A stretch of 64,000 bases of DNA from Cognatishimia sp. SS12 (GTDB lineage Bacteria > Pseudomonadota > Alphaproteobacteria > Rhodobacterales > Rhodobacteraceae), in NCBI RefSeq assembly GCF_028369055.1, contig NZ_JAQNCZ010000002.1, positions 1 through 64,000 on the forward strand. Reading direction: 5' to 3'. Positions 328 through 7,066 of the stretch are shown here, piece after piece (position 1 is the first letter of the stretch; the number at the start of each line of letters is the position of its first letter). The notes below the pieces were generated by a model. It saw nothing but the letters and a program-made list of their open reading frames with translations. It had not been told where the DNA came from and made no database searches. The position numbers were made by a program, and so were the translations under genes.

Positions 328-942
328 TCAGTTCAAACCCGAAATCTCCTTGAGCGCGGCCACAACCGCCGCCACCCCGGTGCCATGACGCAGCGCGGTG
401 AAGAAAAACGGACGCTCCGCGCGCATGCGGGCCGCATCCGTCTGCATCACCTCAAGCGAGGCACCGACATGCGGGGCGAGATCGGTTTTGTTGATCACCA
501 GAATATCGGAGCGCGTGATCGCCGGCCCGCCTTTGCGTGGGATCTCTTCGCCCGCAGCCACGTCGATCACATAGACCGTCACATCCGCCAGCTCGGGGCT
601 GAACGTGGCCGAAAGATTGTCGCCGCCGCTTTCGATCAGCACCACCTCAAGATCCGGATGGCGGGCCTGCATCTCGGCCACAGCTGCGAGGTTGATGGAG
701 GCATCTTCGCGAATGGCGGTATGCGGGCACCCGCCGGTTTCCACCCCGATGATGCGATCGCCGGGCAGGATCTGTTGGCGCATCAGCGCCTCGGCGTCCT
801 CTTGCGTGTAGATATCATTGGTGATCACGCCGATTGAATAGCTGTCCTTCAGGATCTCGGCGAGGCGCGCTGTCAGCGTGGTTTTGCCCGCGCCGACGGG
901 GCCGCCAATGCCAATACGGATAGGGCCATGCATTTGGGTCAT
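328..942 (-). CDS. ureG: Urease accessory GTPase UreG
   Basis: SIMIBI-class GTPase that drives nickel delivery to apo-urease together with UreD, UreE and UreF in the cytoplasm. The 204-residue length is normal for the family. A Walker A loop (GGPVGAGKT) lies at residues 13-21, the nickel-binding CPH motif of UreG is at residues 72-74, an ESGGDNL switch follows near residue 103, and the guanine-specifying NKTD is near residue 150. It is the last gene of the leftward urease operon, and its start overlaps the end of ureF by 4 bp. All signature motifs are intact, so I expect it to be functional. Confidence 0.97.
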
Positions 943-1592
943 GATTGAAAAAGCCTTGGCTGGAGTGTTTCGTGCTGCATCGCCGCCACATCCGACAGGA
1001 AAGCGGAGGAGGCGATATCGTTCAACTGCGCCGTCGCCGCGGCCCTGGCGCAGGCCAGACAGGCGGGGACCATCTGCGCAATAACGCGCTGCGCCCCGGT
1101 TTGCCCCAGCGGCATCAGGCGCTGCGCTGCGCTGGCAAGATTGCTGACAAAGGCCTGCAGGTAAAGCGTCGTGGCGGCGGTGACGTCGAGCCCGAGCAGA
1201 TGCGCCGCGCGGCCCAGCGCCACAGGCATCAAAAGCGGCGGCAGGGTGATCTGCCAGACATCAGCCGTGATCTGGGCAAAGGCAGCGCCCTGCCGCGTTG
1301 CTTCGCGCAGACGTTCCGCCGCAGGCGCAAAGGCTTTGGCTTCAGCATTCAGCGCCAGCACGGCCGCGGCATCTGGGGCCTCATAACCTAGTCTGATCCA
1401 GATTGCGTCCGCCTTGCCACTGCCGTGGTGCAACAGATCGTTCAGCCAGCCCTGCAGGCTGACCTCATCGTGCACCCACCCATTGGCGATGGCGCTTTCC
1501 AGCCCATGCGAGAAGGCAAAGCTGCCCACCGGGTAGGCGGGCGACAGCCATTGGGTCAGAGTCAGAAGGCGCGGATCAATGGCTGTGCTCAT
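939..1592 (-). CDS. ureF: Urease accessory protein UreF
   Basis: All-helical UreF, which bridges UreD and UreG in the pre-activation complex and gates GTP-dependent nickel insertion. I choose the ATG at 1592 (217 residues, starting [10 protein letters not shown]). The open frame runs further upstream, but that extension lies inside ureE and looks like out-of-frame translation of its His-rich tail. The ATG at 1604 is also possible. The family's N-terminal feature, [17 protein letters not shown], is present near residues 16-32. The chosen start overlaps the end of ureE by 17 bp, which implies coupled translation. Confidence 0.93.
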
Positions 1593-2073
1593 GGGATCCT
1601 GCATGTGAATGGTCATGCGCGGATGCGCCGTGCTCATGTGAATGGGTGCGGCCATGGCCATAGGCCCCACCTTCCGGCGTGAAAGGTTCCTGCGCCTCAG
1701 TGATGTCCGCCCCCAGATGCGCAAGCATGTGCCGGATGACCGGATCCTTCTGGATCAGCAGTCGATTGCTTTCGATCTGGCAGGGGGTATGGCGATTGCC
1801 AATGTGCCAGGCCAGCCGATGCAATGGCGCGCCGGTCACGACCAGCACTTCCTCAACGGCGGCGCGCACCTCGACAAAACGGCCATCATCCAATGCGAGG
1901 CAATCCCCGTGATTAAGCGACGTGGTCTTTTCCAGATCGATCACAAACGGCCAGCCCTGATCGGTGATCAGCCGTTTGCGGCGCAAGAAACGCCCATCGT
2001 AATCTAGCGTCACCGTGCCATCTGCATCATGGGCATGGCGGTGCAGGGTCTGCGCCAAAGGCAGCGTGGTCAT
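1576..2073 (-). CDS. ureE: Urease nickel metallochaperone UreE
   Basis: Nickel-binding chaperone that hands Ni to the UreG/UreD/UreF complex. It has 165 residues, with an N-terminal beta-rich domain and a C-terminal ferredoxin-like metal domain. The last 28 residues hold ten histidines (repeats of HSHEH, HDHSH and HEHSH type), the variable nickel-storage tail seen in many UreE proteins. It lies 11 bp downstream of ureC in the operon and overlaps ureF. The tail suggests extra nickel buffering, but tail length varies widely in the family, so this is not diagnostic. Confidence 0.95.
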   Translation of the reverse strand: MTTLPLAQTLHRHAHDADGTVTLDYDGRFLRRKRLITDQGWPFVIDLEKTTSLNHGDCLALDDGRFVEVRAAVEEVLVVTGAPLHRLAWHIGNRHTPCQIESNRLLIQKDPVIRHMLAHLGADITEAQEPFTPEGGAYGHGRTHSHEHGASAHDHSHAGSHEHSH

Positions 2074-2084
2074 ATTCGCCTCCT

Positions 2085-3797
2085 TCAGAACAGGAAATAG
2101 CGCTGCGCCATCGGCAGCTCGGTGGCAGGCTGGCAGGTCAAAAGCTCCCCATCAGCGCGCACCTCATAGGTTTCCGGGTCCACCTCGACGGTGGGGGTGG
2201 CGTTGTTTAGCAGCAGATCCTTTTTGCCAATATCGCGCGTCTTCTCTACGGCGATGGTCTGTTTGGCGAGGCCGAGACGGTCGCGCAACCCATCGGCTGC
2301 GGCGGCTTGCGACACGAAGGTGACGGCAGAGTTTTCAACGCTGCGGCCGTAGGCCCCGAACATCGGGCGGCTGTAGACCGGCTGTGGCGTCGGAATGGAC
2401 GCATTGGGGTCGCCCATCTGCGCCATTGCAATTGTCCCGCCCAAAAGCACCATTTCCGGTTTGATCCCAAAAAACGCCGGGTTCCAAAGCACCAGATCAG
2501 CGCGCTTGCCTTCGGCGATGCTGCCAATTTCATGGCTCAAGCCATGGGCGATCGCCGGGTTGATCGTATATTTGGCAATATAGCGGCGCACGCGGAAGTT
2601 ATCATTGTCGCCGGTCTCTTCGGCGAGACGCCCGCGCTGCTTTTTCATCTTGTCTGCGGTCTGCCAGGTGCGGATCAGCACCTCGCCCACGCGGCCCATG
2701 GCCTGAGAATCCGAGGCGATAATCGAAAACGCCCCCATGTCATGCAGGATGTCCTCGGCGGCAATCGTCTCGCGGCGGATGCGGCTTTCGGCAAAAGCGA
2801 TATCCTCGGGGATCGACTTGTCCAGGTGATGACAGACCATGAGCATATCCAGATGCTCTTCGATGGTGTTCACCGTAAAGGGCCGGGTCGGGTTGGTTGA
2901 GCTGGGCAGCACGTGATCTTCGCCGCAGATTTTGATGATATCGGGCGCATGGCCACCCCCGGCCCCTTCGGTATGAAAGGCGTGGATCGTCCGGCCTTTC
3001 ATGGCCCCGACGGTGTGTTCGACAAAACCGGATTCATTCAGCGTGTCAGTGTGGATCATCACCTGCACATCCATGGCATCCGCCACGGACAGGCAGCAAT
3101 CAATCGCCGCAGGCGTTGTGCCCCAATCTTCGTGCAGCTTTAGTGCGCAGGCACCGCCCTTAATCTGCTCTTCCAATGCGGCGGGCAGGCTGGCATTGCC
3201 CTTGCCCGCAAAGGCCAGGTTCATCGGAAAGGCATCTGCAGCCTGCATCATGCGGCCAATATGCCAAGGACCCGGCGTGCAGGTTGTCGCCAAGGTGCCA
3301 TGGGCCGGGCCGGTACCCCCGCCCAGCATCGTGGTCAGGCCGGAATGCAGCGCATCTTCGATCTGCTGCGGGCAGATGAAATGAATGTGGCTGTCAAAGC
3401 CGCCTGCGGTCAGAATGCGCCCTTCGCCCGCAATCACCTCGGTGCCGGGGCCGACAATGACGTCGACGCCCGGCTGGGTATCCGGGTTGCCGGCTTTGCC
3501 GATCTTGTAAATGCGGCCGTCTTTGAGGCCAACGTCAGCCTTGAAGATCCCCGAATGATCGACGATCAGCGCATTGGTAATGACGGTATCCACCGCCCCC
3601 TCGGCGCGGGTGACTTGCGATTGCCCCATACCATCGCGAATGACCTTGCCGCCGCCAAATTTGACCTCTTCGCCATAGGGGCCGGTCAGGTCTTTTTCGA
3701 CTTCGATAATCAGATCTGTATCCGCCAGGCGGAGTTTGTCGCCCACGGTCGGGCCAAACATCGCGGCGTAGTCGGAGCGTTTGATTTTGGCTGGCAT
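2085..3797 (-). CDS. ureC: Urease alpha (catalytic) subunit UreC
   Basis: Catalytic subunit of nickel urease: urea + H2O to 2 NH3 + CO2. The length of 570 residues is standard for bacterial UreC. Visible active-site parts include the metal-binding HIHFICP segment, the lysine in [11 protein letters not shown] that is carbamylated to bridge the two Ni ions, histidines in [10 protein letters not shown] and [14 protein letters not shown], and the mobile-flap Cys-His in [22 protein letters not shown] (given here as family landmarks). The start overlaps the ureB stop by one base (TGATG). No catalytic residue appears to be missing. Confidence 0.99.
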
Positions 3798-4102
3798 CAG
3801 AGCGCCCCCATCACTTTCTGGTTAAATCCGTAGATCTTGCGCGCGCCGGAAATCGGGATCAGCTGCACCTCGCGGCGCTGGCCCGGCTCAAACCGCACAG
3901 CGGTCCCCGAGGCGATATCAAGCCGTAGACCGCGCGCGGCGTCGCGATCAAAATCAAGCGCCGGGTTGGTTTCGGCAAAATGATAGTGACTGCCCACCTG
4001 CACCGGACGATCGCCGGTATTGGCCACCATCATGGATATGGCTTGTGCGCCTGTGTTCAGCTCAATCTCGCCCGCTGCCGGGAACAATTCACCGGGGATC
4101 AT
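3797..4102 (-). CDS. ureB: Urease beta subunit UreB
   Basis: Small structural subunit of the (alpha-beta-gamma)3 urease. It is 101 residues long, starts [18 protein letters not shown], and shows the family core [19 protein letters not shown] followed by FDRDAARG. It is a separate gene, not fused to ureA, as usual in proteobacteria. Its ATG overlaps the stop of the upstream 50-codon gene as ATGA, and its own stop overlaps the ureC start by one base, so these genes are probably translationally coupled. Confidence 0.98.
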
Positions 4103-4251
4103 TTTGCGAAGGCCAGTTTGGCGGCCACACCGGCAACCGCAATCAGCGCGAGGCCAATCAGCAGGGGTTCAACCCCATGCGGATGCAGATGCACGCCGGT
4201 ATGGGCGGCGGCGGGGCTGGCTAGCAGGACAAGTGGCAAAGCGAATTTCAT
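4099..4251 (-). CDS. 50-residue His-rich membrane peptide inside the urease operon
   Basis: A short gene between ureA and ureB, read directly from the minus strand: ATG at 4251 and TGA at 4099-4101. The product has a hydrophobic N-terminus ending in ASPAAA, which looks like a signal peptide or first membrane segment. A histidine cluster [10 protein letters not shown] follows at residues 17-26, then a second hydrophobic helix (about residues 29-45) ending in Lys. A GGAGATC ribosome-binding sequence precedes the ATG, and the stop overlaps the ureB start as ATGA. The His cluster after a signal peptide recalls the N-terminus of HupE/UreJ nickel permeases, but the rest of such a permease is absent. 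A nickel-related role is inference; I know of no assigned function. Confidence 0.8.
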
Positions 4252-4263
4252 GGGCGGATCTCC

Positions 4264-4566
4264 TTATCGAATGGGGTTGTGAACGGTGACAAGCTTGGTG
4301 CCGTCGGGAAAGGTCGCCTCGACTTGCACGTCGTGGATCATCTCGGGCACGCCCGCCATGCACATCTCGCGGGTCACGACGGTGGCCCCGGCCTCCATCA
4401 TATCAGCGACAGAGCGGCCATCTCGCGCGCCTTCGACCACCGCATCGGTGATCAGGGCAATGGCTTCCGGGTGGTTCAATTTCACACCGCGCGCCAACCG
4501 TTTGCGTGCGACTTCGGCGGCCATGGCAATCAAAAGTTTGTCTTTCTCGCGGGGGGTCAGGTTCAT
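4264..4566 (-). CDS. ureA: Urease gamma subunit UreA
   Basis: Structural gamma subunit of urease. It has 100 residues when started at the ATG at 4566 ([13 protein letters not shown]), which is the canonical UreA start and length. An in-frame TTG 15 bp upstream is rejected because the GGAG between the two codons is the ribosome-binding site for the ATG. The family motif for this subunit, NHPEAIALI followed by [12 protein letters not shown], is present. It lies two bases downstream of the ureD stop, and its ribosome-binding site is inside ureD. Confidence 0.98.
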
Positions 4567-4568
4567 TT

Positions 4569-5441
4569 CTATAGTCTCCAAGAAGTCGGAAGCCCGTCGC
4601 GGCTGAGCCGATCCAGAACGGGCAGAAGGCTGCGGCGCAACTCATAGCTGTCGGCGGCAATCAATCGGATGGCCAACAAATCGTCCGCCAGAAGGCTTGC
4701 GCCCGCCGTCTGTGGCAACATGGCGCGTATGGGGGCAAGATGGGCCATCGCATCCGGCGCGACATAAACCACACTCGCCATGGCAGCCCCGGCCTGCGCA
4801 ACGGCTCGCCCAGCCAGGTGACGGGTCATGTCGCCCATGAGGCGCAGGGCGTCATTGTAAAGCGGCGCGCCATCGCGGTGGATGCGGATGCGATCCTCAA
4901 ATTCGATATCTTTTAACGTCTCACCCATGGCCGCGCGGCCAAACACCACCGGCTCCACCATCAGCAATCGGGCGTTTGGCGCAAGATCTGCTGTGAGGCT
5001 GCGGTTCAGCTTGCAGCCTTCAAACAAAATCAGCTCTTGCGGCAACCAGTTGATCTGCCCGCCCGCGTCAATTTGCAGATGGGTTGAAACTCGGGCGCGG
5101 CCCGCATCTGCGCGATAGGCCCGCTCTGCCGCTTGGGTGGTTGCGGTCATTTTGCTGTCCGGTCCGGCGTGCAGCGAAAGCGTCAATTGATCGCCGCTGG
5201 TCAGACCACCCGACGTATTGATCAAGATCGCCTCAACATCATCACCACGCGAGAAGAGCCCCTTCATCGCGCCCTGAGCCCGAAAGCGGTCAATACCGCT
5301 CCGCGCACCAATACGCTTGCTGCTGAGCGTCAGCATGCCCTGCGTGCGTGGCACCGGGCCGACGGCAAACGCGGGTGAATTTTTTAAGGGGGCGTTAATG
5401 GCAGACATTCCTTTTCTTGATCGCTCTGCCACATCTTTCAT
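4569..5441 (-). CDS. ureD: Urease accessory protein UreD
   Basis: Scaffold chaperone that binds apo-urease and receives UreF/UreG during nickel insertion. The ATG at 5441 gives 290 residues; a second ATG at 5408 ([10 protein letters not shown]) would give 279. Neither has a strong ribosome-binding sequence, so the start is uncertain. The UreD hallmark [11 protein letters not shown] lies near residue 76, followed by [10 protein letters not shown] and the [10 protein letters not shown] segment. It is the first gene of the leftward urease operon and is divergent from urtA. Confidence 0.95.
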
Positions 5442-5502
5442 CAACAGCGCCGGAATGTGATGACGATTCTCTCAAATCATACACGAAACCCCGCGCCTAC
5501 GC

Positions 5503-5785: not shown

Positions 5786-7066
5786 ATGAACCTGTTTTCT
5801 AAAACTCTCACCAGTGCAGCGGCCCTGACGGTCATGGCCGGCGCGGCTATGGCGGCAGACTGCCCGGTTAAAGTTGGCGTTCTTCACTCGCTGTCCGGTA
5901 CGATGGCCATTTCCGAAACCACTCTGAAAGACACCATGCTGATGCTGGTTGAACAGCAGAACGCAAAAGGTGGCGTACTGGGCTGTGAGATCGAGCCTGT
6001 TGTTGTCGACCCTGCATCTGACTGGCCACTGTTTGCTGAAAAAGCACGCGAGCTGCTGACCACACACGAAGTGGACGTGATCTTTGGCAACTGGACATCG
6101 GTGTCCCGCAAATCCGTTCTGCCGGTCATCGAAGAGCTGAACGGCCTGCTGTTCTACCCGGTTCAGTACGAAGGTGAAGAATCCTCCAAAAACGTATTCT
6201 ACACAGGCGCTGCCCCGAACCAACAGGCGATCCCTGCGGTGGACTACTTCCTGGAAGAGCTGGGCGTTGAGAAATTCGCGCTGCTGGGCACTGACTATGT
6301 CTACCCACGCACCACCAACAACATTCTTGAGCAATACCTGCAAGACAACGGCATTGCTAAAGACGACATCTTTGTAAACTACACACCGTTTGGCCATTCT
6401 GACTGGGCGACCATCGTTGCGGATGTTGTGGCTCTGGGCGAAGACGGCAAATCTGTCGGTGTCATCTCCACCATCAACGGCGACGCAAACATCGGCTTCT
6501 ATAAAGAACTGGCAGCGGCCGGCATCTCTGCTGACGAAATCCCAGTTGTGGCCTTCTCCGTGGGTGAAGAAGAACTGTCCGGTCTGGACACATCCAACCT
6601 TGTTGGCCACCTGGCGGCCTGGAACTACTTCCAATCCGCTGAAACCGAATCCAACGCTGAGTTCATCGACGCATGGAAAGCCTATGCCGGTGCAGAGCGC
6701 GTGACCAATGACCCAATGGAAGCCCACTATATCGGCTTTAACATGTGGGTGAACGCGGTCGAAGCGGCGGGCACCACCGATGTCGACGCTGTGCGCACCG
6801 CAATGTACGGTCAAGAGTTCCCGAACCTGACCGGCGGTACAGCTGTCATGCTTCCAAACCATCACCTGGCGAAACCAGTGCTGATCGGCGAGATTCAAGC
6901 AGACGGTCAGTTTGACATCATTTCCAAGACTGAAGAAGTGCCAGGCGATGCTTGGACTGACTTCCTGCCTGCCTCCGCAGTGCTGAAGTCTGACTGGAAA
7001 GATCTGGGTTGCGGTATGTACAACACCGAAACCGCAAGCTGCGTACAGATCAAATCCAACTACTAA
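5786..7066 (+). CDS. urtA: Urea ABC transporter, periplasmic urea-binding protein UrtA
   Basis: High-affinity urea-binding protein that feeds the UrtBC permease. The ATG at 5786 follows a good ribosome-binding site (GAGGAG) and gives 426 residues. A signal peptide ends at AMA (residues 1-22), and the mature part starts ADCPVKVGVLHSLSGTMAISE, typical of the Leu/Ile/Val-type binding-protein fold. Segments such as FGNWTSVSRKSVLPV and NGLLFYPVQYEGEE are UrtA-specific in my recollection. Codon use differs from its neighbours (many GTT, CTG, TCC and ATC), which suggests very high expression. A strong terminator-like hairpin follows before urtB. Confidence 0.98.
   Translation: MNLFSKTLTSAAALTVMAGAAMAADCPVKVGVLHSLSGTMAISETTLKDTMLMLVEQQNAKGGVLGCEIEPVVVDPASDWPLFAEKARELLTTHEVDVIFGNWTSVSRKSVLPVIEELNGLLFYPVQYEGEESSKNVFYTGAAPNQQAIPAVDYFLEELGVEKFALLGTDYVYPRTTNNILEQYLQDNGIAKDDIFVNYTPFGHSDWATIVADVVALGEDGKSVGVISTINGDANIGFYKELAAAGISADEIPVVAFSVGEEELSGLDTSNLVGHLAAWNYFQSAETESNAEFIDAWKAYAGAERVTNDPMEAHYIGFNMWVNAVEAAGTTDVDAVRTAMYGQEFPNLTGGTAVMLPNHHLAKPVLIGEIQADGQFDIISKTEEVPGDAWTDFLPASAVLKSDWKDLGCGMYNTETASCVQIKSNY

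Follow-up and report, generated by a model that had tools for sequence, protein, structure and literature searches.

A 50-codon membrane microprotein gene between ureA and ureB of Rhodobacteraceae urease operons, a candidate accessory for nickel capture

Introduction

The HupE/UreJ permeases are presented, in the available part of the source, as proteins of six helices with the motif HPXXGXDH in the first of them (PMC7689651). In the anglerases Ang-1 and Ang-2, N-terminal-histidine domains are fused to HupE/UreJ-2 permeases and were proposed to capture metal for delivery to the permease, the Ang-1 domain having been characterized with copper according to the sections available (PMC12537917). 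Gastric Helicobacter carry two small histidine-rich nickel-binding proteins linked to urease, as far as the accessible text describes them (PMC4671568). For guanidine hydrolase, the consulted portion of one paper reported that the Nitrospira enzyme contains nickel and manganese, that the Synechocystis enzyme was produced together with nickel-loading chaperones, and that the route of metal loading in Nitrospira was unclear (PMC11410670).

The gene considered here, designated X, lies between ureA and ureB. It was not described in the literature searched on urease operons, small ORFs and histidine-rich or nickel proteins, mostly consulted as titles and abstract openings, and the parts seen of two Paracoccus yeei urease papers named no gene of this kind.

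Gene X in the urease operon of Cognatishimia sp. SS12

The window, that is, the whole stretch of 64,000 nucleotides analysed from Cognatishimia sp. SS12, carries a urease operon in the order ureD-ureA-X-ureB-ureC-ureE-ureF-ureG, all on the minus strand:

4569-5444, minus strand: ureD (Pfam PF01774)
4264-4581, minus strand: ureA, urease gamma (PF00547)
4260-4265, minus strand: AAGGAG, Shine-Dalgarno of X, 8 nt 5' of the ATG and sharing bases with the ureA stop codon (4264-4266)
4099-4251, minus strand: X, gene for a 50-residue membrane microprotein (ATG 4251-4249, TGA 4101-4099)
4099-4102, minus strand: ATGA, overlap of the X stop TGA and the ureB ATG
3797-4102, minus strand: ureB, urease beta (PF00699)
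2085-3797, minus strand: ureC, urease alpha (PF00449 and PF01979)
1576-2073, minus strand: ureE, with a histidine-rich tail (PF02814 and PF05194)
939-1577, minus strand: ureF, start codon not fixed (PF01730)
328-942, minus strand: ureG (PF02492)

A binding protein and a permease of an ABC transporter, presumably Urt-like, were also recognized by Pfam, with a divergent start near 5786.

The short frame that a sequence-only reading had marked at 4099-4251 is a real gene, and it is the minus strand that holds it: translation of the plus strand runs into an internal stop. The ribosome-binding site and the ATGA coupling to ureB proposed in that reading were both confirmed. Within the window, the duplex energy of the Shine-Dalgarno was –8.2 for X vs –1.5 for ureB, which has hardly any site of its own; therefore, translation of ureB probably relies on ribosomes that have read X, which makes translation of X itself likely. 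Among 71 copies of X, the stop-start overlap with ureB was found in 67, and the median Shine-Dalgarno energy was –5.4 for ureB vs –7.3 for X, the site of ureB being weaker, not absent. Searches with X returned no match above cut-off in Pfam, none at E<=10 in NCBIfam, and none in the plasmid collection.

Protein layout and selective constraint

Three segments were delimited in the predicted protein:

4204-4251, minus strand: predicted signal peptide, residues 1-16, ending A-A-A before H17
4174-4203, minus strand: predicted mature N-terminus and histidine cluster, residues 17-26
4108-4170, minus strand: membrane helix, residues 28-48, in the AlphaFold2 model

The protein thus reads as a signal peptide, a mature N-terminal histidine, the cluster HxGxHxHPHG, one membrane helix and a basic tail. 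The histidine cluster and second hydrophobic helix noticed earlier were both recovered, the AlphaFold2 model (mean pLDDT 80.2) placing helices at residues 4-15 and 28-48. By pattern only, cleavage being predicted, the signal-peptide end is marked by a histidine in 70/71 copies and AxA-H occurs in 66/71. The strict form AHxGxHxHPH was preserved in 45/71 copies and a lysine or arginine among the last four residues in all 71. In the 66 AxA-H copies, the number of histidines within mature residues 1-14 ranged from one to five and was four in 51/66; the copy at locus L043 has lost the cluster, and some divergent copies have few histidines. Judging from charge and helix order, the cluster would lie on the periplasmic side with the signal peptide either cleaved or retained, a location that would fit metal capture better than assembly in the cytoplasm.

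Conservation of the frame in the ureA-ureB gaps of relatives and its dN/dS had been suggested as checks, and both turned out in favour of a working gene. X was present in 9/9 genomes of Cognatishimia (this one and eight others) in a search of 100 relatives, and in 43/80 operons of the family. The dN/dS ratio ranged from 0.09 to 0.32 in seven non-overlapping pairs, one drawn from guanidine-hydrolase copies and the other six from urease copies; pooled over these pairs, 132/313 synonymous sites had changed vs 93/839 non-synonymous ones (Fisher P about 2e-29). Within the genus, dN/dS lay between 0.13 and 0.56 over all 36 pairs, dS being close to saturation in many of them. The pN/pS ratio was 0.18 in the signal peptide, 0.16 in the histidine region and 0.36 in the helix and tail. 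X is therefore under purifying selection, strongest in the signal peptide and histidine region.

Occurrence beside two nickel enzymes

A profile was built from 18 copies of X, most of them belonging to a 112-locus set or to the same genomes, with one row (L010) beginning upstream of its ATG; the 112-locus set was itself partly chosen for X or UreJ and includes genome G010 twice. When 295 genomes of the family were searched, 81 matches were obtained at E<=1e-4, and every one lies beside the gene of a nickel enzyme, 68 at urease and 13 as the third gene of a guanidine-hydrolase operon, with none elsewhere. The urease-side figure includes 16 matches placed adjacent to ureB by coordinates only, and the 81 include G030, cut before ureA, as well as G170 and G259, where X and ureB are separated by a further frame. 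Family membership, taken as a profile match together with a site beside such a gene, thus covers 81/81, and the nickel link of a real microprotein gene anticipated by the sequence-only reading is borne out by this association and by a slot shared with HupE/UreJ. The count does not include thirty further rows with 1e-4 < E <= 0.01; those examined comprised divergent urease-slot copies (e.g., G044 and G209), the beginnings of UreJ genes, and also unrelated frames (L203, L209, L210). Among 25 loci from named records, 21 were urease and four guanidine-hydrolase loci; Cognatishimia maritima and Ruegeria halocynthiae carry X in the urease slot, and Thioclava carries the guanidine-hydrolase copy. Beyond the Rhodobacteraceae, the urease slot carried X in one genome (G439) among 289 sampled from the class, and a copy was also found in Roseibium sediminis.

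The guanidine-hydrolase operon consists of an arginase-family enzyme, a histidine-rich protein of 137-171 aa and then the paralogue X'. Assignment of the enzyme rests on comparison of the copy from genome G175 with Synechocystis GdmH (7esr/7oi1; E 4.9e-160) and with Nitrospira guanidinase (9fek; E 1.5e-156), and the GdmH of Cognatishimia sp. SS12 is 90% identical to that copy. Of 44 GdmH loci, 30 were read and one (L187) was cut, leaving 29 readable; the histidine-rich gene lies directly 3' of gdmH in 29/29 (L171:2760-3221, L166:2769-3230 and 27 others), and X' follows it in 21/29, with a four-base overlap in 20, being absent in the other 8/29. The copies of the histidine-rich protein scanned gave no Pfam or NCBIfam match, and in a fold search the best PDB match had E 0.16, with none at E<=0.001. 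This protein could serve guanidine hydrolase as a nickel chaperone. In a literature search on guanidine hydrolase and histidine-rich proteins in Rhodobacter or Roseobacter, none of the titles listed concerned guanidine hydrolase.

Occupants of the ureA-ureB slot

The slot was surveyed in 80 Rhodobacteraceae operons, one per genus, being those most like the UreB of the window (80 of the best 82 rows, two at contig ends having been dropped). X occupied 43, 22 were empty (a ureA-ureB gap under 120 nt), seven held HupE/UreJ and eight something else. With four further copies chosen by coordinates, full-length HupE/UreJ genes were found between ureA and ureB at L049, L071, L079, L083, L086, L098, L111 and L205-L208. 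Two of the eight other slots (L080 and L120) encode proteins similar to X in layout but not accepted by the profile.

Several slots and gaps had additional content. A 181-189 aa protein resembling, by eye, an HD-type hydrolase was present in the slot at L100, L114 and L118, and a membrane protein of a different kind (96-100 aa), whose stop overlaps ureB, at L092 and L107. At L078, a 248-aa frame that by eye resembles an ion channel separates X from ureB. The ureB-ureC gap, taken from the tblastn match, ranged from 2 to over 3000 bases across many of loci L041-L120, often with room for genes.

It was also considered whether X replaces UreJ genome-wide. This idea was rejected, as UreJ, counted at PF04955 E<=2e-18, was encoded outside the slot in 8/43 genomes with X vs 6/22 with an empty slot, with no clear negative link.

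When the slot states were mapped on a 107-row UreABC tree, 27 changes were needed for X, 15 for the empty slot and nine for UreJ. Shuffles needed as few changes in 16/500 cases for X and 4/500 for the empty slot, which are somewhat clustered, and in 152/500 for UreJ, which is not. The order of gain and loss is not readable from this tree, in which 45/104 inner branches are without support, and X and UreJ were probably gained and lost several times.

Proposed role and alternative explanations

An even call, in our estimation, is that X acts as a functional, coupled microprotein, anchored in the membrane and facing the periplasm, which would capture nickel as an accessory. The protein would be exported by means of its signal peptide, and cleavage would leave histidine 17 as the N-terminus; the mature form would then be held in the inner membrane by its single helix, with the basic tail in the cytoplasm. 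The periplasmic lure H-x-G-x-H-x-H-P-H-G, offering a free amino end and four histidines, could bind Ni2+ (possibly Co2+ or Cu2+) and concentrate the metal at the membrane, ready for an importer, whereby the supply of metal would keep pace with urease synthesis. The paralogue X' would do likewise for the nickel-dependent guanidine hydrolase, and the presence of this second nickel enzyme at X' loci lends the nickel idea strong but indirect support. The 22/80 urease slots that are empty and the 8/29 GdmH loci lacking X' indicate that X is dispensable for the enzymes. Moreover, since the published Ang-1 work used copper, the metal of X may be other than nickel.

Candidate importers were sought in the genome of Cognatishimia sp. 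SS12. It encodes a CbiM/CbiQ ECF system that does not adjoin X, and no NicO match was found in it. The PF04955 hit of this genome is a HupE/UreJ-2 protein (L224), encoded away from X. This protein has a signal peptide followed by AHEVNP at the N-terminus, and a PF13795 domain (E 3.2e-48) at the C-terminus; it is as much a possible partner of X as a possible substitute for it. At this locus, the HupE/UreJ-2 gene (1270-2406, plus strand) and a DUF4198 gene (477-1289, minus strand) are adjacent, the layout published for Ang-1.

X could alternatively be a membrane tether or regulator that binds an importer, a chaperone or a urease component and no metal itself. Small regulatory membrane proteins often consist of a single helix and a short tail, as X does, and the tight coupling of X to the operon would suit such a function; however, the best-conserved parts are the signal peptide and the exported histidine cluster, not the helix or tail, and we regard this explanation as unlikely.

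Less probable still is that X serves as a coupling cistron passing ribosomes from ureA to ureB and setting the subunit ratio, the peptide being of little use. Its Shine-Dalgarno lying within the ureA stop and the frequent stop-start overlap agree with this, as does the Shine-Dalgarno of ureB, weaker downstream of the 71 X copies (the median given above) than downstream of 22 empty slots (median –6.1; P 0.01). Yet the histidine cluster is constrained at the residue level, paralogues occur in a second operon where the gene after X' varies by locus, and the urease operons with an empty slot work without X.

The least probable explanation, that X derives, as a relic or minimal descendant, from a slot-occupying UreJ and keeps its signal peptide and first membrane stretch, would account for the shared slot, for the opening of both proteins with a signal peptide then AH (followed by HPxxGxDH in UreJ vs HPHGxE in X) and for a UreJ profile score of 20.7, above 150/150 full shuffles (maximum 14.6). 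However, 64/150 shuffles that kept the signal peptide scored as high, so that it is the signal peptide that carries the likeness. Moreover, the 18 members gave no PF04955 match at E<=1 (and X itself none at E<=10), the constraint on X is typical of a working gene, and a second locus carries a related family of equal size. Of the two suggestions made in the sequence-only reading, the resemblance to the start of HupE/UreJ stands for the signal peptide then AH, being confined to the signal-peptide region, and that of a relic of a larger permease is not supported.

The finding has a wider meaning: urease and guanidine hydrolase both need nickel, and the conserved, coupled microprotein present at both is a direct and testable candidate for provisioning nickel across a widespread family of bacteria. 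X also suggests that part of a well-studied operon can escape notice for being only 50 codons long.

Comparison with known systems

HupE/UreJ (PF04955) shares with X the urease-operon slot, in other genera, the signal peptide followed by AH, and a His-Pro near the first helix. The slot copies, however, are proteins of 186-195 aa with HPxxGxDH, whereas X has 50 aa, HPHGVE and one helix past the signal peptide, and with two helices in all, signal peptide included, it does not fit the six-helix description of the permeases.

By profile scores against shuffles, DUF6732 (PF20506) is nearer to X than UreJ is, and it is a probable distant sister. Both have a signal peptide with a histidine at its end, a histidine motif and one hydrophobic stretch; DUF6732 differs in its HPGHxxxxxGHDHW-like motif, its acidic tail and its locus. 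X scored 9.0 bits against PF20506, below the curated cut-off of 27, and 10/18 members of the X profile matched at E<=1 (best 4.4e-4). A profile that included ten of twelve DUF6732 proteins gave a match probability of 96, with a score of 43.0 vs a maximum of 42.4 among 120 signal-peptide-kept shuffles, a narrow margin. No literature on DUF6732 was found. Its gene lies directly upstream of a CbiX-type chelatase gene (PF01903) in 12/12 loci read (L212-L223), and the NCBIfam models nearest to this CbiX are nickelochelatases, matched below their cut-offs. The CbiX copy at L215 has a histidine-rich C-terminus. A Paracoccus relative makes siroheme, according to the part of the source available (PMC7689651).

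More tentatively, and with some doubt, these families may form a guild in Rhodobacteraceae: stand-alone, anchored N-terminal-histidine metal lures of about 50-80 residues, each encoded inside the operon of the enzyme served (X with urease, X' with guanidine hydrolase, DUF6732 with CbiX). Capturing metal on the outer surface of the inner membrane, they could supply larger Ni/Co permeases or take their place.

By description, the small histidine-rich nickel proteins of Helicobacter resemble X in size, histidine content and urease link. To our knowledge, a membrane layout like that of X is not among their features.

The closest working model for X, by analogy, would be the anglerases, which likewise present an N-terminal histidine after a signal peptide, recognized in X by the pattern given above. 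The anglerase, in the portion of the source available, is a folded domain fused to its permease through a linker at residues about 175-184 (PMC12537917), whereas X ends after one helix, with no fused HupE/UreJ-2 domain, and would act as a short free lure carrying its own anchor.
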